Part shown: positions 174 to 13,371 of the stretch, piece after piece
How the letters are laid out: every line of letters starts with the position of its first letter
How positions within the stretch are numbered: the stretch's first letter is position 1
NCBI GenBank assembly: GCA_001564255.1
Contig: LKNC01000047.1
Location: forward strand, 1 to 13,371
DNA: 13,371 nt
From: Natrialbaceae archaeon Tc-Br11_E2g1
Lineage (GTDB): Archaea > Halobacteriota > Halobacteria > Halobacteriales > Natrialbaceae
Reading direction: 5' to 3'
The notes under the pieces: model-generated
What the model was told of the DNA's origin: nothing
Seen by the model: only the letters and a program-made list of their open reading frames with translations
The model's database searches: none
Program-made: the position numbers and the translations under genes

Positions 174-196
174 ACTGTCGGTCAGGAGGCGACGGC

Positions 197-244
197 GTTA
201 AACGACGTGGTCCGTCGCGGAGAGACAACCGAACCGATTTTACA
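197..244. promoter_or_regulatory. Divergent promoter region between trm1 and the SWIM gene
   Basis: Two back-to-back TATA-like boxes. On the minus strand CGTTTAAC (197-204) lies about 25 bases before the trm1 ATG. On the plus strand TTTTACA (about 238-244) lies about 25 bases before the GTG at 266. Both distances are those expected when an archaeal transcript starts at or next to the start codon, and no Shine-Dalgarno sequence is seen for either gene. Inferred from sequence only. Confidence 0.5.
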
Positions 245-265
245 ATTCGGGACGCACCTCCGGAC

Positions 266-622: not shown

Positions 623-723
623 CTCGGGTGTCATCGATCGAGCCGTCGTGTGCGTTCGACGCCGCTGCATCCGGCGGGAGTCGACCGCCGCGACCGTGGA
701 AGCTTTGGGTCCGCCGTCACGTA

Positions 724-741
724 CTGGTAGCTATGTACCAG
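724..741. promoter_or_regulatory. Inverted repeat upstream of the Tfx-family gene (possible operator)
   Basis: CTGGTA (724-729) and TACCAG (736-741) form a perfect 6-bp inverted repeat with a 6-bp centre. The repeat ends 23 bases before the GTG start of the regulator gene. It therefore covers the place where the TATA/BRE element would lie, and no ordinary TATA box is seen there. That position suits autoregulation by the encoded DNA-binding protein. Function is inferred. Confidence 0.4.
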
Positions 742-764
742 CGAGCAGTCGGGGGACGATCGCC

Positions 765-1223
765 GTGATCGACGAAATCGACGACGTCCTGGAGGGGATC
801 GGCTTCGATTCGGAGACGAGCGTCCTCACGCGCCGGCAAGCACAGGTGCTTGCGCTCAGAGAACGTGGGATCTCCCAGGCCGAGATCGCGGAGAACCTCG
901 GGACGTCGCGGGCGAACGTCTCCTCGATCGAGGGCAGTGCCCGGGACAACCTAGAGAAAGCACGCGAGACGGTCGCGTTCGCCGAGGCGCTCCGTGCACC
1001 GGTCCGGGTGCACATCCCTCAGGGAACTGACCTGTACAACGTCCCACAGGACGTCTACGACGCCTGTGACGAGGAAGGTGTGAAGGTGACCCAGAGCGCA
1101 CCCGACCTGATGAAGATCATCAGTGACGCCGCCGGTGGCGCGGTCGACGGTCGCCAGGTCGTCACCGACATCGTCGTCGGCGTCACCTCCGACGGGATCG
1201 TTCGCGTCCGACAACCCGAGTAA
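765..1223 (+). CDS. Tfx family helix-turn-helix transcriptional regulator
   Basis: A 152-residue protein with two parts. Residues 20-60 form a helix-turn-helix (LTRRQAQVLALRERGISQAE then IAENLGTSRANVSSIEGSAR) resembling sigma-factor region 4/LuxR-type readers. Residues 78-150 match the C-terminal Tfx domain (PVRVHIPQGTDLYNVPQDVY, then DLMKIISDAAG and VVTDIVVGV). The founding member, from Methanothermobacter, binds downstream of the promoter of a molybdenum formylmethanofuran dehydrogenase operon. Haloarchaea lack that pathway, so the target here is unknown, although a link to molybdate or other metal metabolism is possible. I chose the GTG at 765: the frame stays open upstream to 648, but those residues look like non-coding translation and the known family starts near here. 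The inverted repeat at 724-741 may be its own operator. Confidence 0.85.
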   Translation: MIDEIDDVLEGIGFDSETSVLTRRQAQVLALRERGISQAEIAENLGTSRANVSSIEGSARDNLEKARETVAFAEALRAPVRVHIPQGTDLYNVPQDVYDACDEEGVKVTQSAPDLMKIISDAAGGAVDGRQVVTDIVVGVTSDGIVRVRQPE

Positions 1224-1281
1224 CAGTATCGTCCTCGATCCAGTCGGCTACCTGACCGAACCGATCCTCGAGGGCGCGTAG

Positions 1282-3021
1282 TCAGGTCCTCTCGACCTCG
1301 AGGCCGACGATCTCCCGCCCTAACACGTCGGCGTAGCCCGTAACGGCGAGTTTTAGCGCAGGGACGCCCGGGAACGTGAGCGTCTGGGCAGTTAACAGCG
1401 GTCGTTCGACGGAGACGCCGAGGTCACGCAGGGTGGCCTCGAGGTCCTCGAACCCCGCCGCCACCGACGGGACCGACTCCCGGGCCGCGAAGGCGGCGAC
1501 GGGCATCGGCAGTTCCGTGAGTACCTCCCCGCCCCGGGCGATCGCCCAGCCGCCGCCGTTGTCGACGACGCGCTCGGCAGCCAGGGCGGCGTCGTCGGGG
1601 TCTGCCGCGATCGTCACGAGCCCCGGCACTTCCCAGGTGTTCGTCGTTGCGGCGGCACCCGCCTCGAGGCCGTACCCCGTCAGGAAGCCGGTGAACCCGC
1701 GGTCGGGCGTGTCCGGATCGCGGTCGATCACCGTCGCCGTGAGAACGTCGCCGTCGGGGTCGGGAACGTATCGGTCGCCCTCGAGGCCGGGTTCGACCGT
1801 CGTCTCGAGGGTGAGCAGTCCCTGGCCGACGTCCATCGCCCGGACCTCGCCGTCGGCTGTGACCGACTGTGGGAGCGTAAAGCGCTCGGGGTCGGTCGAG
1901 ACGTCGATCGTGTCGAAGACGAACTCGGGGTAGGAAACTGTCGGCGGATCGATCGTCGGGGTACCGTCCTCGACGACGACCTCGCCGTCTGCGAGCACCG
2001 TCTCGACGGCAACGGACTCGAGGTCGGAGACGACCACCAGGTCGGCGTACGCGCCCGGAGCGATCACGCCCCGGCCCTCGAGGCCGAAGTGTTCGGCGGT
2101 GGTTCGAGAGGCGGCGTCGACGGCGGCTGCCGGATCGACCCCGGCCTCGATCGTCCGTCGGAGGAGTTCGGCCATCCCGAAGCCGTCACGGAGCGCGGTC
2201 GGCCAGACGCCGTCGGTCGACAGCGAGACGTTCCCGGGCGCTATCTCACCCGCCGCGAGCGGGTCCGCGACCGCCGAGAGGTCGTCCCGGATCGAGCCAC
2301 ACCGGGCGACGACCTGTAGCCCCTGTTCGGCCCGGTCGAGCGCTTCCGCCGGGGAGATCGGTTCGTGGTCGTTGTCGACGACGGTCGCGAACGCCCGCAG
2401 GTTCTCCCCGCGACAACCCGCGCCGTGGCCGACGATCCGGACGCCCGCCTCGCGAGCGCGCTCGTAGAGCCCCTCGACCGGCGACTCCTGGCCGACGACG
2501 TGAATCCAGTCGATCTCACCCACGCCGACGATCCGCTCGTGGTCGAACAGGTCCGCGAGCGCCTCGAGTTCATCCTCGTCGGCCCGCCGGGGCTCGAAGG
2601 TATCGACGAGGGGTTGGGGGGCGACCGTCGGGTACACCGAAAGCGGGAGGTCCGCGGTGGCCTCGAGGTACGCCTCGGTGCCCCTCGAACCGAGAGTCGT
2701 CCCGAACCCGGAGAGTTCGGTGACGACCGAGGTCGTCCCCGTCGCGAGTACGGACGGACAGAGTTGCTCGGTCGTCGCGTACAGGTCCGCGTGGGTGTGT
2801 GCGTCGATCAACCCCGGGATGACGGTCCGCCCGGCGGCGGAGACGACGGTCGTCTCGGGACCGACGGCGTCGTCCCCGTCCTCGAGGATCGTCGCGATTC
2901 GATCGCCGACGATCGCGATATCCCGTTCGAGGAACGTCCCACGGTTCGAACAGAAGACACGTCCGCCCTCGACGACGACGTCGGCGGCGTCGCCGAGCGC
3001 GACAGGCTGGAGGTCGTTCAC
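1282..3021 (-). CDS. ade: Adenine deaminase family amidohydrolase
   Basis: A 579-residue protein, the normal length for bacterial and archaeal adenine deaminase (adenine + water to hypoxanthine + ammonia; purine salvage, cytoplasmic). Visible elements in order: the small N-terminal beta domain with VVEGGRVF; VIPGLIDAHTHAD with metal ligands H75 and H77; GVGEI with E169; GHGAGCRGENL with H199; NDHEPIS with H219; and LSTDGVWP with D270. The motif after the first domain, ARCGSIRDDL, and the C-terminal region (ANTW-like and NGGGWAI) also follow the family pattern. The family has TDD where this protein has TDG, so substrate preference may differ. It begins at GTG, 13 bases after the stop of the metallo-beta-lactamase-fold gene, and very probably shares its transcript. 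It converges on the Tfx gene. Confidence 0.88.
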   Translation of the reverse strand: MNDLQPVALGDAADVVVEGGRVFCSNRGTFLERDIAIVGDRIATILEDGDDAVGPETTVVSAAGRTVIPGLIDAHTHADLYATTEQLCPSVLATGTTSVVTELSGFGTTLGSRGTEAYLEATADLPLSVYPTVAPQPLVDTFEPRRADEDELEALADLFDHERIVGVGEIDWIHVVGQESPVEGLYERAREAGVRIVGHGAGCRGENLRAFATVVDNDHEPISPAEALDRAEQGLQVVARCGSIRDDLSAVADPLAAGEIAPGNVSLSTDGVWPTALRDGFGMAELLRRTIEAGVDPAAAVDAASRTTAEHFGLEGRGVIAPGAYADLVVVSDLESVAVETVLADGEVVVEDGTPTIDPPTVSYPEFVFDTIDVSTDPERFTLPQSVTADGEVRAMDVGQGLLTLETTVEPGLEGDRYVPDPDGDVLTATVIDRDPDTPDRGFTGFLTGYGLEAGAAATTNTWEVPGLVTIAADPDDAALAAERVVDNGGGWAIARGGEVLTELPMPVAAFAARESVPSVAAGFEDLEATLRDLGVSVERPLLTAQTLTFPGVPALKLAVTGYADVLGREIVGLEVERT

Positions 3022-3034
3022 AGTTGACGGTTGT

Positions 3035-3982
3035 TCAGACGCGCTCGTACCTAATCCGCTCGCTTTCCTCGCGTCGTCGGGCCTGGTCGCGACACTCGAG
3101 GACGTCTAAGTGACCGATCGCCTCGCTCATCCCCGGGTAGAGTTCTCCCGGTGGCAACTCGCCGAACAGGTCGACCATCACCTCGTAAGCCGTCGTCGCC
3201 TCCCTGAGGCCCTCGAGGACGGTCTCGGTCCGCCGTTCGTGAGCCGCGAGTACGTCCGTGATCCGCCTCTCCGGGTGATCGATCGGTTCGCCGTGACCTG
3301 GGAGCAACTGATCGAATCCCTGCTCTCGCAGGGACTCGAGGGAGTCGTTGAACGCCGGGAGGACTCGCGGACGCTCGCCGCCGGGCTCTCGAGGCGGTTC
3401 CAGGAGTGGGTTCGGCGTGACCTCCCCGAGGACGTGATCGCCGACGACTCCGACCCGGGACCCACCCGCTTCGTAGCCAAACCACAGCTCCCCGGGTGCG
3501 TGGCCGGCGAGCGTCCCGATCGAGAGCGTCGCCTCCCCGACCGTGACCTCGTCGCCTCCCGTCAGTTCGCGGTCGACCCGGCAGTCCTCGACGAACCCCT
3601 CGATGTACCTCGAGGCCTCGAGGGTCGCCTCCACCGCCGATTCGGGCATCCCGTGGCGGCGAAACGACTCCTCGAAATACGACCGCTCGTACTCGAGTCG
3701 GCCCCCGAAATCCGCCAGGATCCCGGCGGTTTCGGGACTAGCGCGGACACTCGCGCCCGCCTCACGGAGTCGCCCCGCGAGCCCACAGTGGTCGGGGTGT
3801 GGATGCGTGATCAGCACCTGTGTGACGTCCGCAGGCTCGAGACCGCGTTCCTCGAGGGCCGACTCGAGGCTCTCCCACGCGGTTTCGGTTTTCGGGCCGG
3901 GATCGACGACCGTCCTGCCGACGAGATAGACGTTGACCGAACCGACGGGAAACGGCGTCGTGACTGGATGTCGGTCGAACAC
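3035..3982 (-). CDS. Metallo-beta-lactamase-fold hydrolase
   Basis: A 315-residue protein. The fold's main metal motif is LITHPHPDHCG (H60-x-H62-x-D64-H65). It is followed by LAGHAPGE (third-site histidine), VGDHVLGEVTPNP (bridging aspartate) and LLPGHGEPI (last histidine). About 60 further residues form a helical, winged-helix-like C-terminal region, as in the LACTB2/glyoxalase II-like branch that acts on thioesters, phosphodiesters or related esters. The substrate cannot be told from sequence. The frame stays open to 4177, but I place the start at the GTG at 3980-3982: a TTTAAG box lies 25 bases upstream, and the protein from there (VFDRHPVTTPFPVGSVNVYL) matches the usual family beginning. 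It is the first gene of a unit with the adenine deaminase gene. Confidence 0.85.
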   Translation of the reverse strand: MFDRHPVTTPFPVGSVNVYLVGRTVVDPGPKTETAWESLESALEERGLEPADVTQVLITHPHPDHCGLAGRLREAGASVRASPETAGILADFGGRLEYERSYFEESFRRHGMPESAVEATLEASRYIEGFVEDCRVDRELTGGDEVTVGEATLSIGTLAGHAPGELWFGYEAGGSRVGVVGDHVLGEVTPNPLLEPPREPGGERPRVLPAFNDSLESLREQGFDQLLPGHGEPIDHPERRITDVLAAHERRTETVLEGLREATTAYEVMVDLFGELPPGELYPGMSEAIGHLDVLECRDQARRREESERIRYERV

Positions 3983-4006
3983 CCATCTACGGAGACGACC
4001 GCTCGG

Positions 4007-4012
4007 CTTAAA
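4007..4012 (-). promoter_or_regulatory. TATA box of the hydrolase/adenine deaminase unit
   Basis: TTTAAG on the minus strand, 25 bases before the GTG at 3982. It sets the hydrolase start, because a leaderless transcript would begin at that codon. No competing box is placed correctly for the upstream in-frame codons. Confidence 0.55.
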
Positions 4013-4152
4013 CGTTCCCAAACGTCGAACGCGTAGGGAGGCGTGGAAAACCCCGATCGAAACCTCACTCGACGGTGAAAGTTCACCCGAGAAATTCTGT
4101 TGTTCGCGAAAAGACTTTATTCTCGAGGCCCCTATCACCGGATAGAGAGCCC

Positions 4153-4413
4153 ATGAGCAAACACTTCGAAGACGCACGATACTACCTGAAACGCGCCGGC
4201 GAACACACCAAACTCGGAGTCGAGGAGACCCTCGAACCCGCAGAAGAACGGGTCCGCGAGTGGGCAGGCTGGGAAGACGAGGAGCCGGAACCGAGCCGCG
4301 TCGAGGCCGTCCTCGAGGACGTCAGAGACCTCGAGGAGCGAGCGGAGGGTGAGACTCGAGAGGCGCTCGGAAAGGCTCGTGAGAGGATCGAAACCTACCG
4401 GGAACAGCGGTAG
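4153..4413 (+). CDS. Small conserved haloarchaeal helical protein (DUF7553-like)
   Basis: An 86-residue, highly acidic protein starting MSKHFEDARYYLKRAGEHTK. Almost all of it is predicted amphipathic helix: a first helix with the FEDARYYLKRAGEH signature, an acidic linker around the GWEDEEPEPS segment, and a second heptad-like helix ending GKARERIETYREQR. From memory this signature belongs to a small family of unknown function found widely in haloarchaea and annotated DUF7553. The frame is open from 4075, but the family begins at the ATG at 4153, and a TTTATT box lies 33-38 bases upstream. No operon partner is seen; it ends 56 bases before the tRNA gene. Function unknown. Confidence 0.8.
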   Translation: MSKHFEDARYYLKRAGEHTKLGVEETLEPAEERVREWAGWEDEEPEPSRVEAVLEDVRDLEERAEGETREALGKARERIETYREQR

Positions 4414-4437
4414 GACCGTCGATTTTCGAAAGGAAGT

Positions 4438-4443
4438 CTTAAG
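4438..4443 (+). promoter_or_regulatory. Promoter element of the tRNA-Val gene
   Basis: CTTAAG about 30 bases before the first base of the mature tRNA, the usual distance of an archaeal TATA box from a tRNA transcript start. Confidence 0.45.
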
Positions 4444-4469
4444 TTCCACCGCCGGATACCGACGATTAC

Positions 4470-4544
4470 GGGTTGGTGATCTAGTCCGGTTATGATACCT
4501 CCTTCACACGGAGGAAGTCGGCAGTTCAAATCTGCCCCAACCCA
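4470..4544 (+). tRNA. tRNA-Val (CAC)
   Basis: A complete cloverleaf can be drawn. Acceptor stem GGGTTGG (4470-4476) pairs with CCAACCC (4537-4543), followed by discriminator A at 4544. The D arm has an ATC/GAT stem. The anticodon stem CCTCC/GGAGG encloses the loop TTCACAC, so the anticodon is CAC, which reads the valine codon GUG. The T arm GGCAG/CTGCC encloses TTCAAAT. CCA is not encoded and no intron is present. The gene marks the border between GC-rich chromosome and the low-GC accessory segment; the 3' half of a tRNA gene is the commonest attachment site of archaeal integrative elements. Confidence 0.95.
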
Positions 4545-4550
4545 TACGAA

Positions 4551-4718
4551 CTACGTACGGTCTGTAACTTCGTCGTTTTCCGAATCCTCAGCGCTTCTAC
4601 CAGCCGAATAGTGATTTTCATCGGCCGATTTCGAGTCACGATATTTCGTGAACCCATGCAGTTGTTTCACGCGAGTCGCCTCCCTCTGGGAATCCGGATA
4701 ATCGAACGGCGATAGCAC
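4551..4718 (-). CDS. Short open frame ending next to the tRNA, possibly a gene remnant
   Basis: A 55-codon frame from GTG (4716-4718) to TAG (4551-4553), ending only 6 bases from the tRNA 3' end. It reads VLSPFDYPDSQREATRVKQL and onward to a Ser/Asp/Glu-rich tail ending in NDEVTDRT. The acidic tail and codon choice look haloarchaeal. There is no ATG, and the frame is closed by a stop three codons before the GTG, so it could be the 3' end of a truncated gene, for example one cut by integration at the tRNA. No family recognised. It could also be an accidental open frame. Confidence 0.25.
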   Translation of the reverse strand: MLSPFDYPDSQREATRVKQLHGFTKYRDSKSADENHYSAGRSAEDSENDEVTDRT

Positions 4719-4893
4719 ATAAATAAGTGGTGGTCGAATTCACTCACAACCGTGCAGCAGTTGTATGAATTAGTCTGAGTTCTTGGCCCTGATCGCCCAT
4801 ACTTCATGTTTGACCTAGTTGAGGAGCACCGCGTATCGTTTAGGCATAGGTTCAGGTCAACCGTTCAGTTACGATCGAACGCAAGGATGAACA

Positions 4894-5226
4894 TCAGTTG
4901 GCTCCGATGTCGAGTAGATCACCCGCGAGCTGACAGAGTTCGGTCTCCTCATCGATCGCGTTCAACCACCGTTTGGGGAGTTCGTTTGCGCCAAAACAAG
5001 CGCCAGCGACGGCCCCCATCGTATCCGTATCGCCACCTCGGTTGACAGCGGTTACAATGGCGTCCTAGGCGGTATCAGGCCGAATTGCGTCGTGGAGGAC
5101 CTGAAGCCGGAGAAAGTGCAAGACAGCGTGCGTACAGCCGGCAGGATGACTGATCTGCATTACCGCAGCATCGGTAAGTCTTCGTGCTATCGAGACGGCT
5201 TGTTCGACGAAGCGGAAGAGAGTCTT
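4894..5226 (-). pseudogene. ADP-ribosylglycohydrolase (DraG/ARH family) remnant
   Basis: The minus-strand translation reads AVNRGGDTDTMGAVAGACFG (about 4987-5046), the magnesium-binding signature near the C terminus of the ADP-ribosylglycohydrolase/DraG family. It then runs through ELPKRWLNAIDE to a natural-looking stop at 4894-4896. Upstream in the same frame are AVMQISHPAGCTHAV, resembling the family's threonine-histidine metal segment, and LQVLHDAIRPDTA. The frame is interrupted by TAG at 5065-5067, just before DAIVTAV. Only about 110 codons remain of a family normally near 300 residues, so the N-terminal half is gone. Intact members remove ADP-ribose from proteins or nucleic acids, or act on ADP-ribose derivatives. 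The break lies inside or close to the inverted repeat at 5209-5252. Non-functional as it stands. Confidence 0.75.
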
Positions 5227-5252
5227 CTGCACAAAGGTTCCTCTTCCGCTTC
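5209..5252. repeat. Perfect 12-bp inverted repeat at the broken end of the ARH remnant
   Basis: GAAGCGGAAGAG (5209-5220) and CTCTTCCGCTTC (5241-5252) are exact inverted copies with a 20-bp centre. The left copy is coding sequence of the ADP-ribosylglycohydrolase remnant; the right copy lies at or beyond where recognisable homology ends. It may be a scar of inversion or a template switch, or a hairpin. No transposase is nearby. Confidence 0.6.
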
Positions 5253-5671
5253 AACTCAATCGTTCTGGCAACTCATCCCGTCGCCGTTGGTGGATTCAAT
5301 AGAACCATTGAGAGTAATAGCGACGGGGGCTGAACAATGGTGTATTGGAACCAGATCAATGCAAGATACCGTGGTTTCGACGTGGGAATTTCTTCTGAGG
5401 GGGACACCGTATCCTGATTACGAGGAATTCGTTGTTATGCGAGGTGATGCTTTTCGGATTAGATCCAACAATCTCGGAAAATGAAGGTAGATGTGAAACG
5501 TTGTGCTTACAAAGTTCCGACCAGTATGGATCTCAGAATCGAATACCGGCTTTTGGGTGTTCTATAGCGAGTATTATTGTCTTTCAATCTTTGCTCTGAC
5601 TTCCCGTAGGTACTGACTCGGTAGAGAAACCACGATCTTAGAAATCGCAGTTTCCAAAATGAGCTGTCGGA
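5253..5671. other. Non-coding or fully decayed stretch
   Basis: About 420 bases between the ARH remnant and the repeat array before parA. A plus-strand frame crosses it up to 5484, but it is largely antisense to the ARH remnant and its C-terminal part matches no family I know. From 5485 the sequence is AT-rich with stops in all frames. No RNA gene, IS end or clear promoter seen. Confidence 0.5.
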
Positions 5672-5723
5672 TCTGTATAACGATCTAGTATAACTAGTTA
5701 GTCTAACTAATTAGTCTAATTAT
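5672..5723. repeat. Array of four 13-bp tandem sites upstream of parA
   Basis: Back-to-back 13-bp units: TCTGTATAACGAT (5672), CTAGTATAACTAG (5685), TTAGTCTAACTAA (5698) and TTAGTCTAATTAT (5711). The middle two are themselves palindromic (CTAGT-n3-ACTAG and TTAGT-n3-ACTAA). The outer two are degenerate but keep the G-T-A/C-T-A-A core. The array ends 31 bases before the parA ATG, so it abuts or overlaps the promoter (CTTTTACG at about 5725-5732). This is the pattern of a centromere/operator bound cooperatively by the DNA-binding member of a partition pair. Role inferred. Confidence 0.7.
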
Positions 5724-5754
5724 CCTTTTACGTAAGCATAACTAATGTGTATAC

Positions 5755-6591
5755 ATGCTCACGTACACGACATACTCTGAGGCCGGAGGCGTTGGGAAAA
5801 GCACACTCACCGCAAATCTTGCTGACGCTCACGCCCAGCAAGGACGCGACGTACTGGTTGTAGACTTAGACCCACAACAAGGATCTCTGACGTACTTACT
5901 AGGAATCACTGCCCCTCGTGACGACGGAGAAGCCGACAATATCGCTCGCCATCTTATTGATCGGCCGAAAGGTAACTTCACCGATCTCATTCACGAGACT
6001 CCGTTTGACTTCGATATCGTTCCCTCGCACAATATGCTTGAAAGCCTGCCGAAGCTCTTAACGAAGGCCGAAGAGATGGCTGAGAATTTGGGGGAATCAT
6101 TCGATACGAACAACCGTCTCCAACAAGTTCTTGCGGATGCGAACATCCCCGACGAGTACGATACCGTCATCATTGACCCGCCAGCAACAGCAGGGCCACA
6201 CCTATATAACGCCTTGTCAGCGACGCGCTCGCTCGTCTTGCCAGTCGAACCAACGGGAAAAGGAATACAGTCAGTAGAAGGAATTCAGGACATGGTCATG
6301 AACCTTGAAACCGCGTTGGAGATCGATATCGGTGTGCTTGCGATCATTCCAAACGGCGTTGGGCAGACAACAAATCAAGAACAGTACCTCGAACAAATTC
6401 GAGAACTCGGCTACCATGCTCCGATCGTGTTACGCGATCGGTCATCGCTGTTCGAAGGCTGCTGGGACAGACGATGTACGGCGTTCTACTACGTGGGATA
6501 CCACCGTAATCGACGGAGAGACTACGAAGTCGGAACATTAGACAAGATACGTGATCTTGCGGCTCATATCCAGGAGGTAGGAGATCAATGA
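5755..6591 (+). CDS. parA: ParA/SojC-type partition ATPase
   Basis: A 278-residue P-loop ATPase of the MinD/ParA type. Walker A is SEAGGVGKST (residues 8-17), Walker A' VVDLDPQQG (35-43) and Walker B VIIDPP (138-143). The C-terminal SSLFEGCWDRRCTAF segment and following Arg/His-rich helix are familiar from haloarchaeal plasmid ParA proteins. Role of the family: ATP-dependent DNA-bound gradients or polymers that move plasmid copies apart, working with a centromere-binding partner. The usual signature lysine in the first part of the deviant Walker box (KGGxGK) is Ala here, as I recall for this haloarchaeal subgroup. The ATG lies 31 bases after the 13-bp site array and about 25 bases after an A/T-rich box, so probably a leaderless, autoregulated transcript. 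Its stop overlaps the next start by 4 bp (ATGA). Confidence 0.9.
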   Translation: MLTYTTYSEAGGVGKSTLTANLADAHAQQGRDVLVVDLDPQQGSLTYLLGITAPRDDGEADNIARHLIDRPKGNFTDLIHETPFDFDIVPSHNMLESLPKLLTKAEEMAENLGESFDTNNRLQQVLADANIPDEYDTVIIDPPATAGPHLYNALSATRSLVLPVEPTGKGIQSVEGIQDMVMNLETALEIDIGVLAIIPNGVGQTTNQEQYLEQIRELGYHAPIVLRDRSSLFEGCWDRRCTAFYYVGYHRNRRRDYEVGTLDKIRDLAAHIQEVGDQ

Positions 6592-7031
6592 CGGACGGCA
6601 TGAAATCAGGGGCAGGAAGCGATCCATTTGCTGACAACTCCGACAACGAAGAGGAGTCTCCGGAGACTAGTGACGTAACCACTCAAGAGACGACAACACA
6701 GGCCAACTCGGAGCCTGAATCGGAGGCAGACGGACACTCATCATCAACTCGTTCAGTGGCATCCGAGTCAGCAGATCACACTGATGAGGGGGATTTACCG
6801 TATATTTTCGGACGGAACACAGTCAAGACTGACCGGCAAATGGTTCAATATTTCTTGCGTGACGAAACGATGAATCTTGAATCCGATGTCAAACATGCTG
6901 TTGAACAGGAACTTGGGACTGATGTGTATCTGACCGATATCCGTGAAGCCCTCATTCGTGTCGGCGCGAATCACGTTGATGAGCTGGCTGACGAACTTCG
7001 AGGATGGGGCTATCGCTACCGAGAAGACTAA
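6588..7031 (+). CDS. ParB-like small partner of ParA
   Basis: A 147-residue protein translationally coupled to parA through an ATGA overlap. Residues 1-68 are low-complexity, Ser/Glu/Asp-rich and probably disordered. Residues 69-147 form the conserved part, starting DLPYIFGRNTVKTDRQMVQY and continuing through DVYLTDIREALIRVGANHVD to RGWGYRYRED. It has no classical ParB ParB/Srx or HTH motif. The type is the small gene regularly found behind parA on haloarchaeal plasmids; by position and by analogy with other small partners it should bind the centromere and stimulate ParA. The short second domain could be a compact helical DNA-binding fold. Family recognition is from memory, function by context. 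Confidence 0.7.
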   Translation: MTDGMKSGAGSDPFADNSDNEEESPETSDVTTQETTTQANSEPESEADGHSSSTRSVASESADHTDEGDLPYIFGRNTVKTDRQMVQYFLRDETMNLESDVKHAVEQELGTDVYLTDIREALIRVGANHVDELADELRGWGYRYRED

Positions 7032-7480
7032 GATCGATACGTTCTACTACTCCACTTCAGTCCATTAGTTTTGAGGAGACCATTTCAATATTCAATTAGC
7101 TTGCGGTACTGCGATTTTGAGATTTTCATCCTGTGTTTCAATTAGTGGAGTATAATTCTGTTTGATACCACGTGGAAACTTGATCGTCAGCGACTCGAAA
7201 TCACGCCACTCCCATCTCTGAACTTCAAATATATCATTACATTATTCAATTAGTCCATACCCCGTCGTAGTCTGGCGGTTTCTAACGATTAACATCATAA
7301 ACTAATGTATCTGTATCTTGTCACAGGAAGCAGGCTGCGTTTCCGTTCCCGAGCGAAAATCAACTCCGGAAGAGGGTGAGACACCGGTAAGCGGTGAAAT
7401 TAGCGCTTCAAAATGGACCAGTATAATTAGTGTACTGTACCCCATTTAGGGATGAGAAGTGAATGCTGCGGAAAACCGTC
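7032..7480. repeat. AT-rich intergenic region with dispersed TTCAATTAG and GTATAAT motifs
   Basis: This 450-bp gap between the ParB-like gene and the converging 413-residue gene has no plausible ORF. TTCAATTAG occurs three times (7091-7099, 7137-7145, 7245-7253). GTATAAT occurs at 7150-7156 and 7421-7427, the same core as in the sites before parA. The second GTATAAT lies in CAGTA-n9-TACTG (7419-7437), a 5-bp inverted repeat. A further CATAAACTAATGTAT stretch (about 7296-7310) resembles CATAACTAATGTGTA just before parA. The region could be the downstream half of the partition locus or a replication origin. Confidence 0.5.
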
Positions 7481-8722
7481 CTACCAGTCAAGCGATACTA
7501 TCTGATCTCGGGTGAACTCCGGGCCGTCTGGCCCGAGCGCTTTCTGCTTGATTTTCCAGGTTGTCGTCCAATCAGCTACTGCCCAATCGAAACTATCACT
7601 CTGATATGCCTCCTTGATTTGCTTACGCCCGTTTTCTACGCTATACACCGATTCGAACGGTCCGTTTGGAAGTTCTCCAAGCCCCTTTCTGTGCCAGTGG
7701 TTGAAAACCATATAAGCGGTCTCTCGGGAATCAAAGACTGCGATCGGTTTGATTCCACGTTTGTTCAGCGACTCCATTTTCCGGTACGTTTTCCGATACA
7801 GCTTCCAGTTGTGATGTTCAGTGAGGATTTCGTACGCGTTGGCTTGATCATCGCTGTCTATTCCAAAGACATCGATGACGTAGTTGTCTAAGTTATAATA
7901 CGAAGATACTTTCCAACCGGGATGTTTGTCGAAGAGTGTTACCAACCCGACCGTAATTCTGTGAACGAGGCCTTCGCGTGGATCTCCTTTGAGGGTAGAA
8001 AACTCACTACGGTTATTAATCAGTGAGCGACCCTTCTCGTTCAGATCATACCACGCTTGCTTGCGAAATACACTCGTCGGTTTTAAGAATCCACTCGCGG
8101 TCTTAAACCAGTCAGCATCATCGAACGCACTAATAACATTTCGACCAAGATCCGTGTTGTAGTAGAGGCGATTGAGAGATTCTTCGTCCAAGTCGGACGC
8201 GATCTGTCTGATGCTCGGGCACTGGTCCGCAAGGAGATGCACTCCGCAGACGACTTCGCCGTTCCACAGAGCGGCGATTCGCTTCAGTAATATTGTTTTG
8301 TCTGTATCGAGCTGAACCGTCGATTCGACTTTTCCTCTTACTTGTTCCTCAGCAAACTGTCTACATTTCTCGGGACGGATTCCTCTTGGACGAGGCGGGT
8401 CTAAGGGATCATATCCGAACCGCTGCTTGAACTGCTTCTGTGAATACCACTTGAGAGTCGGTCGACCGTACGTATCTATTATCAACACATACTCTGTTCC
8501 AGACTGCGCGTTCGAGATATCGAAGCCAATTGATTCCGGGTCATGCTGCTCCTCATCCCGTGGAATCTCCTGATATCCGCTCACATCTTCCCCAGGACGT
8601 GCGGGGAACACCTCGAATGTACAGCGACCGCGAGGGTCCCGTAACCCACATCTTCCATAGAGTGGCGCTTTGTGCGGCCAGCTGTCCTCGTTGATTCGTG
8701 ACTCAAACGGACTCAGTTGCAT
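7481..8722 (-). CDS. Hypothetical haloarchaeal plasmid protein, winged-helix plus nuclease-like regions
   Basis: A 413-residue protein starting at ATG (8720-8722). Residues 10-110 are a charged N-terminal region containing EYVLIIDTYGRPTLKWYS. Residues 140-250 are helical with a probable winged-helix unit (PSIRQIASDLDEESLNRLYY; later AWYDLNEKGRSLI). Residues 252-345 read GLVHRITVGLVTLF, then YVIDVFGIDSDDQANAYEIL, then RKMESLNKRGIKPIAVFDSR. The last block has the look of a restriction-endonuclease-like (PD-(D/E)xK) core: D284, a strand with E298, helix, and the closing beta strand. The catalytic Lys after E298 is not there (E-I-L), so activity is doubtful. The tail, with LGELPNGPF and DWAVADWTTTWK, is one I associate with haloarchaeal plasmids and proviruses, but no named function comes to mind. 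It is transcribed towards the ParB-like gene. Confidence 0.7.
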   Translation of the reverse strand: MQLSPFESRINEDSWPHKAPLYGRCGLRDPRGRCTFEVFPARPGEDVSGYQEIPRDEEQHDPESIGFDISNAQSGTEYVLIIDTYGRPTLKWYSQKQFKQRFGYDPLDPPRPRGIRPEKCRQFAEEQVRGKVESTVQLDTDKTILLKRIAALWNGEVVCGVHLLADQCPSIRQIASDLDEESLNRLYYNTDLGRNVISAFDDADWFKTASGFLKPTSVFRKQAWYDLNEKGRSLINNRSEFSTLKGDPREGLVHRITVGLVTLFDKHPGWKVSSYYNLDNYVIDVFGIDSDDQANAYEILTEHHNWKLYRKTYRKMESLNKRGIKPIAVFDSRETAYMVFNHWHRKGLGELPNGPFESVYSVENGRKQIKEAYQSDSFDWAVADWTTTWKIKQKALGPDGPEFTRDQIVSLDW

Positions 8723-8734
8723 TATTCTATAATA

Positions 8735-8748
8735 CCCGCTCTTGCGGG
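8735..8748 (-). promoter_or_regulatory. Perfect hairpin just upstream of the 413-residue gene
   Basis: CCCGC (8735-8739) and GCGGG (8744-8748) form a 5-bp perfect stem with a 4-base loop, 12 bases before the ATG at 8722. It is either an operator at the promoter or a leader hairpin close to the translation start. The plus-strand AAAA that follows would read TTTT before the stem on the minus strand, so it is not a terminator for the minus strand. Confidence 0.35.
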
Positions 8749-8833
8749 AAAAGGCTTAGCGAGAATAGGGAACACAAGCCTTCAAAACCAGATTATCAGC
8801 ACTTCCTGCGGACTCACAGCACGACCATATCAG

Positions 8834-9031
8834 ATGGCTCATGCGAAAGGAGTACGCGAAGCCGTCGACAAGTACGGGGAAAATGCCGTCGCAGAGTGCA
8901 TCCGCCACAGCCTTGCAGACGGGATCTCACACCGCGCTGCAGGAGCCGTGTCGGGAAACTACGTTGGGGTATCAACATTGGCGTCGCAGCCAGCACGTAT
9001 CCTCGAGAACTCCTCGGCGAACGAACCCTGA
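8834..9031 (+). CDS. Small hypothetical protein, possibly an HTH fragment
   Basis: A 65-codon frame from ATG (8834): MAHAKGVREAVDKYGENAVA, then ADGISHRAAGAVSG. The first 45 residues resemble the start of a helix-turn-helix protein (two helices, then an S-x-R-A-A-G turn). The remainder, ending LENSSANEP, looks less conserved, and no C-terminal domain is present. The frame stays open upstream to 8717 without a better start. It diverges from the 413-residue gene with about 110 bases between the starts. It may be a truncated regulator or a chance frame; no partner or family can be named. Confidence 0.35.
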   Translation: MAHAKGVREAVDKYGENAVAECIRHSLADGISHRAAGAVSGNYVGVSTLASQPARILENSSANEP

Positions 9032-9032
9032 T

Positions 9033-9276
9033 TCATGTTTCTCGGGGTATCCCCTCGGAATCATCCGCCCATGCTGCAAGTTCTGGGAAACACGACGGGC
9101 AGAACTCGACGAAGTTTCCTCGGTTAATGACGTCAGCAACGGTCTGCCGTTCCTCATCAAGCAAGTCCCGGAGTTCATTGTCTTCCTCACCCCACAACGG
9201 CGAGGTATCGCGTTCGTACCCGCACGCGATCAAGGCGAAAACTCACCTGCAGGGTTTTCATAGGCAGTTCGCACAT
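9033..9276 (-). pseudogene. Frameshifted small zinc-knuckle protein gene
   Basis: The minus-strand frame 9033-9233 encodes IACGYERDTSPLWG, an acidic helix (EEDNELRDLLDEERQTVADV) and VEFCPSCFPELAAWAD, the second half of a two-knuckle zinc-binding protein (C-P-S-C). It has no ATG or GTG and is closed by a TGA at about 9243. In the neighbouring frame, directly upstream, an ATG at 9274-9276 gives MCELPMKTLQVSF. A single one-base frameshift would join the two into a protein of about 80 residues. Small acidic Cys-knuckle proteins of this sort are common on haloarchaeal plasmids and viruses; their roles are unknown. Either a broken gene or a sequencing indel. Confidence 0.45.
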
Positions 9277-9355
9277 CTTGTTCTGGTGTCCTTTGGGATC
9301 GATAAGTACAGGTGGATGACTGAGCAGTCGAAGGAGTCCTATTTAATTCAGAATA

Positions 9356-9697
9356 TCATGAATCAGATGAGGGTGTTTCACTGAGGTATTCAATCGTGTT
9401 TTTTAACCGCTGTAATTTCTCTTCTGCCTCTTTTTGTTTTTCTCGTACGCGTTCGCAGTGTCGAGCAACTGTCGTTACTCGAACATCATATTCCCGCGCG
9501 ATATGGGCATTCTTTTGATCGAATACAATTGCAAGCTCCCACATGGCGATTTGACGTTTAGTGAGTGTAGTTTCTTCAGCTAATTGTACCCACTTTTCCT
9601 CGTTTGCTTCCCGCAATACGGCGACAGCATTGTCTTGCCTTGACGCGATATTGTTCGAATCGTATTCCATATTGAGTGATTGTCCGCGGGCACTCAT
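9356..9697 (-). CDS. Helix-turn-helix protein with C-terminal coiled coil
   Basis: A 113-residue protein. Residues 30-75 form a sigma-70 region 4/LuxR-like DNA-binding unit: WVQLAEETTLTKRQIAMWEL, then a recognition segment around AHIAREYDVRVTTVARHCER. Residues 76-104 (EKQKEAEEKLQRLKNTIEYL) are a short coiled coil suited to dimerisation. The first 28 residues are not conserved-looking; the ATG at 9670 (MEYDSN) is an alternative start. Two 11-bp direct repeats lie just upstream of the first ATG, which suggests autoregulation. It is divergent from the 435-residue gene and separated from it by about 400 bp of palindrome-rich DNA, so it may control both. No known family name. Confidence 0.65.
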   Translation of the reverse strand: MSARGQSLNMEYDSNNIASRQDNAVAVLREANEEKWVQLAEETTLTKRQIAMWELAIVFDQKNAHIAREYDVRVTTVARHCERVREKQKEAEEKLQRLKNTIEYLSETPSSDS

Positions 9698-9708
9698 AAC
9701 CTTTTACG

Positions 9709-9744
9709 ACTTCTTGGGTCGATTTTAGCACATACTTCTTGGGT
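9709..9744. promoter_or_regulatory. Two 11-bp direct repeats before the HTH gene
   Basis: ACTTCTTGGGT occurs exactly at 9709-9719 and 9734-9744, with starts 25 bp apart. The pair sits 12-47 bases before the ATG at 9697 and covers the expected promoter of the HTH gene. This is a likely operator with sites on nearly the same DNA face (25 bp is about 2.4 turns). Binding protein inferred to be the HTH product itself. Confidence 0.5.
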
Positions 9745-10108
9745 TTTCGCTTAAAAGGAGGGGGTTCAAACTCGCCTTCAAGATGAAGCATAGTTCAAGG
9801 AGAGCTAGGCGGTTCAGACGATCACCGAAGACAGGATTAAGAAAACCAAGTCAAACGAATGCTTTCGATGAAGAAAGACCCAGGAAGAGTAGGCGGAGGT
9901 GTACCGCTAAGACAGATTGGATGAGTCAGAGCTTCTACGCTGCAACCAGGTTCTCAACCTGCGCAGTCTGCTCGTCTTTCTACGTTGATACCGTATCATC
10001 TTCTCTCTATAAAGAACCAGATCGATTACTTACTACTACCTCTCTTTGGAGAGAAGTAGAAAGGAACCAGCCTGGTTCGTTCCGTGTTCGGTCAAAATCA
10101 TCTAGGGG
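9745..10108. promoter_or_regulatory. Palindrome-rich leader of the multi-domain DNA-binding gene
   Basis: A 365-bp stretch without a credible gene. It holds CAGGTT-CTC-AACCTG (9947-9961, perfect), a TATA-like CTATAAAG (10007-10014), GAACCAG twice exactly 50 bp apart (10014-10020 and 10064-10070), a hairpin with 10-base arms and one mismatch (10036-10059), and the 15-bp palindrome GAACCAGCCTGGTTC (10064-10078). The density of inverted repeats before a putative DNA-binding gene resembles a plasmid replication origin or a strongly autoregulated promoter. If the TATA box is used, the transcript has an untranslated leader of about 70 bases containing the hairpins. Confidence 0.5.
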
Positions 10109-11422
10109 GTGGGTGGAGTGAGTCGTGGTCCTCAGCTCAATCGGGAAGTTCCAGAGAAGTCCGTTGAGAAATTCGAGGAATGGTGTAACCACGAAGGGCA
10201 CGTAAACGGCGGCGACAAAGGACGACATGCCGAACAAGCAATCATTGAGTATCTGCCACCGAAGTACCGTCCTGACCGATTCCGCGACGATCTAGATGAA
10301 CTCGAAACCAATCTCCGTGCCGATCTTGACCAAGCCGGACTCCTAACTGAGGATTCTTCGTTGAAAGAGAACCGGGTTACGAGGAGTAGTACTGAAACAA
10401 AGAAAGTCACGTACCGAATCGCGGAGGATGTCCAAGAAGCACTTGAACAGTACGTTTACGATCAAGAAGGGAAGACCCGCAGCGTGATTGGAGAGTACAT
10501 CGCAACTGCGTTGGACGAATACCGCGATGGCGGTCAAACTGCGCGTGTCCGGCGGTACTATGAAGAGTTGCGTGACGGTACAGAGATGATCTCTGAAGAC
10601 AGAGTTGGAAAAATTATTGACATACTTGAAGAAGAGTGTGGAGACAGAGATTATTACAACATTGAGACGATCAGAACAGCAGTTGAGAAGGCATTAGTCG
10701 TTCATTCCGATGAGGTCCGGAATGACTTCGCAGACCGTGTCATCGATCGCCTCGGATTGGTTTCTGTTAAAACAAGTGACGGAGTATACGCGACGCCAGA
10801 GCGAGCAGAACAAATCGTTCAGGAGTACGAGGTCGGTGATGGCGTTGCTTGGGATGTGATGGACAAAGAGGAGCGCGTAGACTACCTCAAAGAGGCTGTG
10901 AAGGCCCGCGCCAAAGGATCGTCTACGACAGGTAGTGGCGTTGATTACAATAAAGTCCGTGACAATATCTTTGAGGGAGAACCTTCTAATGATTACTGTT
11001 ACAAACTAATGAAATCGGCCGGTGAATCCCCCGGATTCGAGTACGGTGATCACAATGGGAAGAAAATGCTTCGGTTCACTGGAACGATGGAATTGTCTGA
11101 GAAGGCTGATGATTGGGTTGGACAGGCAGTTAAACTCGTGAGAGAGTTCTGTGAGGAGAATGAGATAGAGCCACGGGAAATTGATCGGCCAGTCTTAGAC
11201 AATCGTATTGCACGAGTACAATTCCCAGATGAATACGACGAAGATTATGGACCCAGCCTTCGATCCCTTGATAAAGTGACTGACAAAGACCGTAATCGAG
11301 TACTTCAAGCAATCACCGATCGTGATGATGCAGATCCAATATTAGAAGATGCGAAAGAAAAAATGCATGAACTTGTGGACCGATCACAACCAATTGCAGA
11401 CGGCGGATCTAATACCAAATAG
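10109..11422 (+). CDS. Large multi-domain putative DNA-binding protein (candidate replication/partition protein)
   Basis: A 437-residue acidic protein; the GTG at 10118 (MSRGPQLNREVPEKSVEKFE) is an equally good start. It has no enzyme motif that I recognise: no P-loop, no rolling-circle HUH, no tyrosine-recombinase residues. It appears to be built of DNA-binding-like helical units: residues about 12-48 (a short helical module), about 98-138 ribbon-helix-helix-like (VTYRIAEDVQEALEQYVYDQ, then RSVIGEYIATALDEY), about 165-240 winged-helix-like (IETIRTAVEKALVVHSDEVR ... GLVSVKTSDGVYATPERAEQ), and about 275-325 a second winged-helix-like unit (VDYNKVRDNIFEGEPSND ... KKMLRF). Palindromes crowd its upstream region. 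Context with parA and its partner suggests a replicon initiator or segregation protein, but this is inference; family unknown to me. Confidence 0.65.
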   Translation: MGGVSRGPQLNREVPEKSVEKFEEWCNHEGHVNGGDKGRHAEQAIIEYLPPKYRPDRFRDDLDELETNLRADLDQAGLLTEDSSLKENRVTRSSTETKKVTYRIAEDVQEALEQYVYDQEGKTRSVIGEYIATALDEYRDGGQTARVRRYYEELRDGTEMISEDRVGKIIDILEEECGDRDYYNIETIRTAVEKALVVHSDEVRNDFADRVIDRLGLVSVKTSDGVYATPERAEQIVQEYEVGDGVAWDVMDKEERVDYLKEAVKARAKGSSTTGSGVDYNKVRDNIFEGEPSNDYCYKLMKSAGESPGFEYGDHNGKKMLRFTGTMELSEKADDWVGQAVKLVREFCEENEIEPREIDRPVLDNRIARVQFPDEYDEDYGPSLRSLDKVTDKDRNRVLQAITDRDDADPILEDAKEKMHELVDRSQPIADGGSNTK

Positions 11423-11463
11423 GATACGCAGGATACTATTTGTATTCGTCTAGAGATCCTCTT

Positions 11464-11682
11464 CTGTATGTCACGCTCCTGGGCACGCTCTGTCGTCACG
11501 ATGTATACCGTCCGGGACAGTTGCTCCGTCAGTCCGTGGTGATTCATCGCGCTCCAGTATCCGATGTACATCGGGTCCACGAGTGCTGACGCGATTACGA
11601 ACTCGTGTTCGGTATACACGGCGTTCTCGCCTGCAGCGAGTGGCAGGATGAGATATTTCCCGTGCGCGATCCGCTCGAGCAA
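11464..11682 (-). pseudogene. AbiEi-like antitoxin/viral-defence regulator fragment
   Basis: The minus-strand frame reads LERIAHGKYLILPLAAG, then HEFVIASALVDPMYIGYWSA, MNHHGLTEQLSRTVYIVTTE and RAQERDIQ. This is the core of the AbiEi family ('transcriptional regulator of viral defence'), where a winged-helix region ends in a G-K-Y strand and a Y-I-G-x-W-S-A-x-N-H-H-G-L-T-E-Q segment follows. In complete proteins of roughly 200-270 residues an N-terminal helix-turn-helix precedes it and a further domain follows. Here both are missing: a TGA stops the frame two codons before the TTG, and after RDIQ the homology ends near 11464. AbiEi works with the nucleotidyltransferase toxin AbiEii in type IV toxin-antitoxin/abortive-infection systems. 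No toxin gene is present, so this is a leftover. Confidence 0.7.
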
Positions 11683-11901
11683 ACGTCAGAGAATGGTTTG
11701 AACACGCCCTACACTACTACAACACACCACAATCGAATCAACAAACAGACACCAGCAGAGGTGTTAGATCAGAAAGCAGCTCATAATCAATGATATAGTG
11801 AAAACTCCGTGAGAGCGACATCAATGATTGTAATCAGATGTGTGATTTCCATCAATCTGCCTGCAATACCACGATTTTGAGAGAATCGTTACGTCGCAAT
11901 G

Positions 11902-11932
11902 GAGAGACGATCGGTAGCATTGATCGTCTCTC
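11902..11932. repeat. Perfect 11-bp stem-loop
   Basis: GAGAGACGATC (11902-11912) and GATCGTCTCTC (11922-11932) are exact inverted copies around a 9-base loop. This is one of the two longest perfect stems seen by eye in the accessory segment, and it lies in non-coding DNA. A T-run starts about 24 bases downstream on the plus strand. It could be a terminator-like or RNA-stabilising structure, a protein-binding palindrome, or an origin hairpin. Confidence 0.6.
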
Positions 11933-12057
11933 AGGGATCATGTAAATTTGACACTGTTTTTGTCCCAGTTCAGGTCGATACCTTTTACAAATACAGATCA
12001 CCGGAAGTCCCGCAAATCACTCCCATAGAACCTATAAACGGCATTTCCAAATACGCG

Positions 12058-12147
12058 TAGGTATCGCCAAGAGGGTTGCGAACGGAGGCGATACCACTAC
12101 ACCAGACAACACTACTAACAAACAACCTGTGAGTTACAAGGGTTTTT
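12058..12147 (+). ncRNA. Candidate small RNA with 5' stem-loop
   Basis: A TATA-like CTATAAAC (about 12032-12039) predicts a transcript start about 25 bases on, near 12058-12064. There a perfect 9-bp stem begins: GGTATCGCC (12060-12068) with GGCGATACC (12087-12095), 18-base loop. An unstructured C/A-rich segment follows, then TTTTT at 12143-12147, the usual archaeal termination signal. The arrangement of promoter, stem, single-stranded part and T-run is what a short regulatory RNA would show. All of this is inferred from sequence and no RNA family is recognised. Confidence 0.25.
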
Positions 12148-12260
12148 AACAAACGGGTTATTTACGGTATTTGCTCTCGCCAATGGTTGGAGCCTAACCA
12201 CGTAACTCGTAGCCGAATCCCAGAATCAACGAGCGAACAACCCAGACACGAATAGATACA

Positions 12261-12288
12261 TCTCCACCGACTGGAGACATGAAAAATA
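12261..12288 (+). promoter_or_regulatory. Promoter with adjacent operator-like palindrome before the gene at 12313
   Basis: AAAAATA (12282-12288) lies about 28 bases before the ATG, right for a leaderless transcript. Immediately upstream, TCTCCA (12261-12266) and TGGAGA (12272-12277) form a perfect 6-bp inverted repeat with a 5-base centre, covering the BRE/upstream position where a repressor or activator could act. Confidence 0.4.
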
Positions 12289-12312
12289 GACCGACACACA
12301 ACGACAATAACT

Positions 12313-12723
12313 ATGACAGAACCAGCAATTGAAACGGTAGTACAGCACTTAAACGGCGATCGCCACCCTAAAATTTCAATTCGAGATCCTAATATGCCTG
12401 ATGGATCTTATGACTTATCTGACGAAATTGTCAAGGAGAATATCAGCGGAATATTTTCGTTTGATTGTATTGTCATTTACAAAGATGATCTTGAGAAAAT
12501 TATTGAATTGATTGGAGGGCCATCCGAATTACCAATTGATCTGAAAATATTCGCCCGCCACCCCTACAGTACCCGCTATTGGGGGACTACATATAATGCT
12601 CGTGAATATATGGATGAAGACAAGTATAGAGAACTGATCGAGGAGGGCCACGGTTTCACTTGTGAAAGAGCTCGGCCAGTAAACCAGATGAATAATAACC
12701 TAATCCTTTATTTGGACCGATAA
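12313..12723 (+). CDS. Hypothetical protein, AT-rich orphan
   Basis: A 136-residue protein starting MTEPAIETVVQHLNGDRHPK. Its codons are much more AT-rich than any other gene in the window. Sections of alternating hydrophobic residues (SFDCIVIYKDDLEKIIELIG and later NNNLILYLDR) suggest a small alpha/beta fold. There is one YWGTTYNAREYMDEDKYREL segment, a single Cys in each half, no signal peptide and no membrane segment. No family recognised. A TATA-like box lies about 28 bases upstream. It stands alone on the plus strand and its low GC points to recent acquisition. The size and context would fit an accessory factor such as an antitoxin, immunity or defence-related protein, but nothing in the sequence proves it. 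Confidence 0.7.
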   Translation: MTEPAIETVVQHLNGDRHPKISIRDPNMPDGSYDLSDEIVKENISGIFSFDCIVIYKDDLEKIIELIGGPSELPIDLKIFARHPYSTRYWGTTYNAREYMDEDKYRELIEEGHGFTCERARPVNQMNNNLILYLDR

Positions 12724-12983
12724 AAGATAATATACCGGTATAATTCTCTGTGATCATTAGGTCCACTCAAATCTTGAAATAATTCTCATCAACTGATTCC
12801 TGAGTATATTGATAATCGTCCACTGTAACGGGTGATTTTCGTTTGATAGGAGGTTTCCGGAATGCAGATCATGCTTGTCCCGGAAGCCTCGGGGACTGAG
12901 CCGGTATTGTAGATGGTGCCGCTTGGAACGTGAAGCCGAGTAAGAGCAGAAAGGTGTGTCATCGGTAGAGAAGAGCCCAAGTC

Positions 12984-13371
12984 TTACTCTCGAAGTCGTG
13001 GGGGGCGATACCCGCCAACCGGTCCAAGCCGCTCGATTTTCCCCGCTCGAACACCTCTTTTGAGCGCGCTCCGACACGGCCAGTTCCAATCGTTTTCTAG
13101 CGGCGGGTCACAGCGAAACATCCTCCCAATGTCCGCAAATGAATACAGGTCGAGTTGATTCCCGAACACGCTGAACGCACCGAGATAGTACCCGTCCGAA
13201 CCCTGTCCCATTGACCATCCCGCCCGCTTCAATTCCCGCGGTTCGAACTCTGTCATGTCCCGAACCGTATACTGGAACATCGAGTACCCAATCGGCACTC
13301 CTAAATCAAGTTCTTCCATGTCGGGATCGTACCGACCGAACCGCGGTGTTGACTGGAGCGACTCGCTCAAC
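12984..13371 (-). CDS. Hypothetical protein, C-terminal part (partial)
   Basis: An open minus-strand frame of about 129 codons enters from the right edge and ends at TAA (12984-12986). The visible part includes MEELDLGVPIGYSMFQYTVR, FEPRELKRAGWSMGQGSDGY, NQLDLYSFADIGRMFRCDPP and the basic end RSALKRGVRAGKIERLGPVG followed by GYRPPRLRE. The last 40 residues could be a small winged-helix unit (helix, helix, then a G-G-Y-R-P wing). An internal ATG at 13317-13319 is a possible start, but the frame has no stop before the window edge, so the gene probably begins outside. Composition is closer to chromosomal GC than its left neighbour. No family recognised. Confidence 0.6.
   Translation of the reverse strand, partial: LSESLQSTPRFGRYDPDMEELDLGVPIGYSMFQYTVRDMTEFEPRELKRAGWSMGQGSDGYYLGAFSVFGNQLDLYSFADIGRMFRCDPPLENDWNWPCRSALKRGVRAGKIERLGPVGGYRPPRLRE

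Follow-up and report, generated by a model that had tools for sequence, protein, structure and literature searches.

Organization and setting of the locus

The DNA analysed here, called the window in what follows, is the entire contig C36 of Natrialbaceae archaeon Tc-Br11_E2g1, 13,371 bases from a 210-contig genome of 67.7% completeness. Between positions 5672 and 11422, it carries the genes of a ParA-family ATPase and its small partner, of a 413-aa protein with a predicted PD-(D/E)XK nuclease fold, of a 113-aa helix-turn-helix (HTH) protein and of a 437-aa putative DNA-binding protein, together with short repeats and conserved DNA elements. The original prediction, made from the sequence alone, had proposed that this interval could be a single replicon module, in which the 437-aa protein could be the initiator or an accessory segregation factor. 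Comparison with relatives leads us to another reading, to which we give a probability a little above one half (about 0.57): the interval would consist of maintenance modules of plasmid origin, assembled as a mosaic in an element that has integrated beside a tRNA-Val(CAC) gene, and its three modules would be separable.

The tRNA-Val(CAC) gene (4470..4544, + strand), called by ARAGORN and Rfam, is the likely attachment site and the left edge of a low-GC island, the GC content being 66.7% for bases 1-4469 and 48.6% after the tRNA. It is the sole match of an Rfam scan of 4300-13371 at E 0.5. Its 3' tail is present in one copy in the window, and elsewhere in the incomplete genome there is no exact tail, only another tRNA-Val at 91%. 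By Pfam, contig C36 carries no integrase gene, and none of the other contigs of the genome is matched by its final 172 bases. Four Orc1/Cdc6-lid matches (PF22703) and two integrase matches (PF00589) were found genome-wide, all on other contigs. We infer from the sequence that the window includes the left end of an element at a tRNA-Val hotspot, the element's own right border lying beyond the contig.

In genome G106, the tRNA-Val is identical over its 75 bases to that of the window, and an exact 22-nt copy of its 3' end lies 47.3 kb away, overlapped by an integrase frame (PF00589, 1.1e-7). The GC content of the G106 island is 0.48-0.58 (2-kb bins) versus 0.62-0.67 outside, two border bins excepted, and the island contains a 437-aa homologue, 61% identical. 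A tRNA-Val of this kind is also present in G341 (locus L044), where some 4.4 kb separate it from a 413-aa homologue. That homologue is flanked on its other side by a gene related to the DUF7553 gene of the window; a second tRNA tail is absent within the 20 kb of L044.

The partition cassette

ParA (5755..6591, + strand) matches Pfam AAA_31 (6.6e-22) and CbiA (3.6e-15) as well as phrog_164 (2.1e-33). Its gene is overlapped by that of a ParB-like partner of 147 aa (6588..7031, + strand), which belongs to no Pfam family and has relatives in 136 plasmid records (E 0.01). Such an overlap is a conserved arrangement, and DNA binding by the partner and co-transcription of the two genes are predicted only. 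Upstream of parA lies a candidate partition/operator array of AGTMTAAYTA units (5687..5744), with a 13-bp period at -68, -55 and -42 from ParA and one further unit at -20. When at most one mismatch is allowed, nine sites are found in the window, seven of them at 5687-5744, for an expected number of 1.1, and none of 200 shuffles reaches nine; seven sites within 220 bp also compare with 0.145 in mononucleotide shuffles. The positions -68, -55 and -42 are common to the window, L042 and L046, and the 13-bp phase is kept in all six other loci tested. The partition pair and tandem sites of the original prediction are recovered.

On haloarchaeal plasmids, the cassettes of ParA and a small partner have their genes in this order too, either adjacent or overlapping, and are preceded by CTAACT-type sites; the window ParA matches 182 plasmid records (E 1e-30). 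Sites of the array type precede parA in all five plasmids without the 413-aa gene (one to six per 300 bp; no shuffle control). The window cassette differs from those of plasmids in that its ParA belongs to a clade of at least 69% identity, its best plasmid match being 65.1%, and in that the 413-aa gene is adjacent in 8 of the 10 members. This clade is present in 10 of 392 genomes of the order, the other matches listed being at most 67% identical. In G005 (L203), an 87% DNA match to window positions 5675-7045 ends at both cassette edges and adjoins an integrase 96% identical to that of L042; because the match is bounded by the edges, the partition cassette is a unit in its own right. Both G005 and G171 carry the ParA cassette, and over the 17.4 and 20 kb compared neither has a 413-aa gene. 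Sequence comparison shows that the cassette made up of ParA, its partner and the 13-bp array is of the kind standard for partition on haloarchaeal plasmids and occurs as a unit. On the Halorubrum plasmid p163 (L168 110-1255), a different gene, annotated as PD-(D/E)XK nuclease family, lies upstream of ParA.

The gap between the partner and the 413-aa gene (7032-7480) is AT-rich, as had been predicted, with 42.3% GC and three exact TTCAATTAG sites (7091..7253, + strand) at 7091, 7137 and 7245, hence a 46/108-bp spacing. Five sites are found in the window with one mismatch and 6 of 200 shuffles reach five, so that the count alone is weak. The three TTCAATTA sites 3' of the partner, spaced by 46/108 in the window, are also present in L042 and, at 47/109, in L043, with small changes; there is one in L047 and none in L046, L048 or L144.

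The 413-aa protein and its 3' element

The 413-aa protein (7481..8722, - strand) gave an AlphaFold2 model (pLDDT 86, pTM 0.81) whose C-terminal part resembles PD-(D/E)XK nucleases, in line with the nuclease-like protein originally proposed. In an alignment of the window protein with 34 of 36 hits, D284 is kept in 35/35 rows and E298 in 34/35. No lysine occupies the usual E-x-K place, where L, M, I or F is found instead, and K315, located in the next helix, is kept in 34 of the 35 rows. The missing E-x-K lysine and a linked 3' DNA element, described below, distinguish the protein from the PD-(D/E)XK nucleases EndoMS/NucS, EcoT38I and AF1548. It has no above-chance match in Pfam, NCBIfam or PHROGs, its profile has no PDB match, and tblastn finds it in no plasmid record. 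The family is present at 19 places in 18 of the 392 genomes (E 1e-20).

Its genomic context varies. ParA of the clade of at least 69% identity is adjacent at 8 of the 19 places, window included, and L146 carries the 413-aa gene with a different ParA (26% identical). In the window, L042 and L043, the 413-aa gene lies downstream of ParA and converges with the partner gene; it is upstream of ParA and co-directional in L046-L048, and has other contexts in L044 and L045. In the stretches compared, an Orc1/Cdc6 match is found around the gene at 2/19 places, L042 and L051. A conserved 5' flank, GATATGGTCGTGCTGTGAGTC... (8792..8831, - strand), is shared by five of six group-1 loci, is not found in groups 2 and 3, and is unrecognisable in L045.

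Directly 3' of the gene lies an element of about 130 bp (7346..7474, - strand) that is common to all 17 places aligned, out of 19, the two G354 places (about 32% identical) being excluded. In the window it comprises TTCCGCA at 7465-7474, CCCTAAATGGGG at 7440-7451, ATTATACTGGTC at 7416-7427 and, at 7346-7371 (- strand), the dyad TTCCGGAG..CTCGGGAA; on the + strand, a partition-type site, AGTATAATTA, is found at 7420-7429. Across the alignment, a TTCC-type box stands near +8, ACTGG is invariant in 17/17 rows, and the dyad TTCCGSAG..CTSCGGAA stands near +110 to +136, L049 and L145 having degenerate versions of it. Only groups 1 and 2 show a CCCCTAAATGGGG-type block, located near +29.

Leave-one-out tests were run on 14 rows, the near-duplicates L143, L144 and L145 being dropped. 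With the dyad matrix, the flank outscores the rest of the same locus in all 14. On the expected strand, the dyad and the CCCC-TACTGG block are each ranked first in 13 of 14; the exceptions are the L046 dyad, of rank 2 (23.1 in the flank versus 7.2 outside when either strand is taken), and the other block in L146, of rank 9. A search for the element in plasmids gave nothing. A structured RNA was also considered, and given its weak consensus fold (-1.81 kcal/mol, covariation term -0.09) the element was judged to be DNA. Comparison shows that the gene of this predicted nuclease-fold protein is inherited with the putative DNA element just 3' of it.

The 437-aa protein and its upstream element

The large putative DNA-binding protein of the original prediction corresponds to an intact 437-aa frame (10118..11422, + strand); homologue alignment favours GTG 10118 as the start over 10109, and the protein is 434 aa from this homologue-supported start. 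The model predicts tandem ribbon-helix-helix (RHH) units, seen as strand-helix-helix repeats (E12-15/H16-28/H34-48 and E97-100/H106-120/H127-139), followed by two winged helices. A distant relative matches RHH_10 at 0.0049, below the cut-off, and the 437-aa profile has a single match in the PDB by sequence, at chance level (E 0.81). The homologue search scored 7997 candidates sharing most words, and the alignment consists of the window protein and 30 of 38 hits, one of the 38 being the window's own. When protein alignments were scanned against genome-contig and viral-contig collections, nothing was found beyond chance.

The 413-aa and 437-aa proteins would most likely stand for two unnamed families, and each of the two is inherited together with a particular cis element. 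That neither has a named family agrees with the original view of them as unfamiliar. A tandem-RHH chain is also found in the F-plasmid relaxosome, in what we take to be TraY; the window protein differs from TraY by its two predicted winged helices and a helical tail after the RHH. No relaxase family is among the Pfam and NCBIfam hits of the window proteins scanned.

A conserved cis element of about 95 bp precedes the gene (9990..10085, + strand), with AAAGAACCAGATCGATT at 10011-10027 and GGAACCAGCCTGGTTC at 10063-10078. Mean pairwise identity is 0.65-0.88 in its core versus 0.32-0.58 before it, one bin of 0.68 excepted. It contains AGAACCAG repeats 50 bp apart, which are exact in L041 and L039; in the window the second copy carries a mismatch at one base, and just one copy, an exact one, is found in L040. 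A scan with a 17-base motif returned 12 viral and 74 genome stretches; none of the 74 titles names a haloarchaeon, and a longer pattern gave 0. Comparison shows that the 437-aa gene is inherited with this putative element just 5' of it.

Two other candidates in this region were rejected. A structured RNA before the gene is not favoured (z -1.30, 8/100 shuffles at least as good), and the element was judged to be DNA. A basic open reading frame (ORF; 9783-10121, + strand) is considered non-coding, since the window and L040 are 60% identical in nucleotides (205/342) but only about 41% in amino acids. This ORF is open in the window, L040 and L039, which is odd for non-coding DNA.

Divergent from the 437-aa gene is that of the 113-aa HTH protein (9356..9697, - strand), which has weak HTH hits in Pfam and PHROGs and an 81% identical copy beside the 437-aa homologue of L040. 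Two ACTTCTTGGGT sites at 9709 and 9734 (9709..9745, + strand) form its probable operator, and 1/200 shuffles reaches two; the HTH regulator with paired operators of the original prediction is plausible.

Distant relatives on plasmids and a virus

Distant 437-aa relatives occur on eight plasmid records, of which six were compared, one of the two left out being a second pNG100 record; for Salinibaculum KK48, the Haloprofundus plasmid, pBOL4-2_49.8, pKBTZ01_38 and pNG100, only part of the record was compared. ParA is found in two of the six stretches and an adjoining ParB-family gene in one, and Orc1/Cdc6 lies within 4 kb on three of the six plasmids, pNG100 and pKBTZ01_38 included. The pNG100 relative aligns over 437-aa residues 4-325 (hhalign probability 98.2%, 23% identical), and that of pKBTZ01_38, a plasmid which also carries a phage portal gene, over residues 65-325 (98.4%, 28% identical). 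About 570-700 bp without annotated gene lie upstream of the relative in pNG100, pKBTZ01_38 and KK48; this is not so in the BJ1 virus, whose similarity to the 437-aa protein is confined to 48 residues (47% identity). One of the winged helices is related to BJ1 ORF33, and a single small gene separates ORF33 from the MCM helicase gene that follows. The original prediction had asked whether the two unfamiliar proteins recur beside parA on circular plasmids, and the answer is divided: the distant relatives are indeed on circular plasmids, some of them with ParA, whereas the 413-aa protein is in no plasmid record and none of the three other close 437-aa homologues has ParA, partner or 413-aa gene within the surrounding 60 kb.

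Probable separate modules rather than one replicon

As the ParA cassette, the 413-aa gene and the 437-aa gene separate in relatives, the reading of them as one replicon module is not supported. The mosaic reading is also supported by Orc1/Cdc6 near some relatives. We infer how binding, cutting, segregation and the replication start site could be distributed: the partner would bind the array, repress parA and load ParA, and the excised element would thereby be segregated; the 437-aa protein might bind the AGAACCAG repeats as regulator and organiser of its own control region, an accessory factor and not an initiator; the 413-aa protein could recognise its 3' element and cut or nick this DNA, perhaps when copies of the element are processed or resolved; and replication would start elsewhere, possibly at an Orc1/Cdc6-type origin past the contig end. 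The remainder of the island lies past the contig end and may or may not include an initiator.

If, on the contrary, the interval were one replicon module, the 437-aa protein would be the initiator, its upstream repeats the origin, and ParA and the nuclease-fold protein maintenance partners. We consider this quite unlikely. The conserved core with AGAACCAG repeats 50 bp apart would suit an origin, pairs of winged helices like the two predicted here are common in plasmid initiators, the presence of distant relatives on circular plasmids and of BJ1 ORF33 near an MCM helicase gene points the same way, and 17 of the 19 stretches around the 413-aa gene have no Orc1/Cdc6. The lack of ParA, partner and 413-aa gene in the 60 kb around 3/3 other close homologues nevertheless argues against it, as do Orc1/Cdc6 on half of the plasmids with a distant relative, the lack of any AAA+, HUH or primase family for the 437-aa and 413-aa proteins in Pfam and NCBIfam, and the palindrome, which taken alone is reached in 28/200 shuffles and is not beyond chance. 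Pfam scans of 13 window proteins agree with the original prediction that no known initiator is present, no Orc1/Cdc6, HUH or integrase family being found; an initiator role for the 437-aa protein itself is left unsupported. Two further alternatives concern the 413-aa protein. Its gene and flanks could behave selfishly, as a homing-like or transposon-like nuclease unit whose insertions fall beside plasmid genes, the 3' element being an end or a target copy; the conserved DNA on both sides of the gene in close relatives and its two arrangements relative to ParA, besides the other contexts, would fit, but of the two flanks the 3' element alone is general, that on the 5' side being unrecognisable in L045 and in groups 2 and 3, and we consider this unlikely. 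A role of the 413-aa protein as a nuclease directed against viruses, with tRNA-Val as a hotspot of defence genes, seems to us the least probable: in L044 the gene is beside an Mrr-type gene and a PLD-like gene (hits below cut-off), and a below-cut-off DISARM DrmE hit in the G106 island and an AbiEi fragment in the window are compatible with such a hotspot, while no PADLOC model matches the protein at E 0.1, and a linked cis element and a ParA partnership would be atypical of defence nucleases.

One speculative possibility is that the 413-aa family represents a novel type of nuclease for plasmid maintenance, of PD-(D/E)XK fold, which would travel with its own recognition locus of about 130 bp (the TTCCGSAG dyad and block, with an exact partition-type site in part of the family) and couple cleavage there to ParA-driven segregation or to replication start of haloarchaeal integrative plasmids; we regard it as doubtful. 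When the ACTGG block is read on its reverse strand, 6 of the 17 rows (window, L042, L045, L049, L050 and L145) match AGTMTAAYTA exactly, the other 11 having two to four mismatches, and the full 13-mer is found in 3/17. Several comparisons weigh against the 3' element as a unique signature. Where the 413-aa gene is missing from a locus, the dyad matrix still scores up to 16.3 (L203) and 17.4 (L150), above the flanks of L049 (14.0) and L147 (14.8), and the CCCC-TACTGG block up to 3.7, above those of L147 (1.6) and L146 (-10.2). L045, L049, L050 and L145, which have the exact site, show no ParA of the clade of at least 69% identity in the stretch compared, so that the link between 3' element and partition site is suggestive but not general.

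Replication and segregation of haloarchaeal integrative plasmids are poorly defined. According to PMC10818511, one plasmid group has no identifiable conserved replication module, and CDC6/ORC1 or MCM helicase is encoded by the majority of its members. The present locus offers two testable protein-DNA pairs, each inherited as a gene and its adjacent element, and it warns against taking whatever lies together in one window for a single replicon. What appears to be new is the 413-aa protein of predicted nuclease fold and its linked 3' element; the partition cassette is ordinary.

Other observations on the islands

The right part of the window island looks worn, given an AbiEi-type fragment at 11308-11682 (- strand), in which about 80 residues of longer AbiEi models are matched (best 2.2e-25). 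In G155 (L041 8700-9188), the low-GC region starts with the 437-aa homologue immediately after a tRNA-like 3' tail, and the upstream element of this homologue probably sits at an attachment site. The tail, presumably that of a tRNA-Trp, has no second copy across the 60-kb stretch, and ARAGORN calls no tRNA there. Near the 437-aa homologue of L040 (4084-7937) are two pairs of a DUF7342 gene and a gene of about 168 aa; DUF7342 genes also occur in L041 and L042, with a relative in L048. The 47.3-kb tRNA-Val island of G106 (C2 376986-424350; L151/L039/L150) carries, in addition to the below-cut-off DrmE hit, genes of a cytosine methylase, of two resolvases and of two E1-E2 ATPases, a heavy-metal domain being present in one of these ATPases; near 391.8-392.2 kb there is also a short AAA/Cdc6-like frame.

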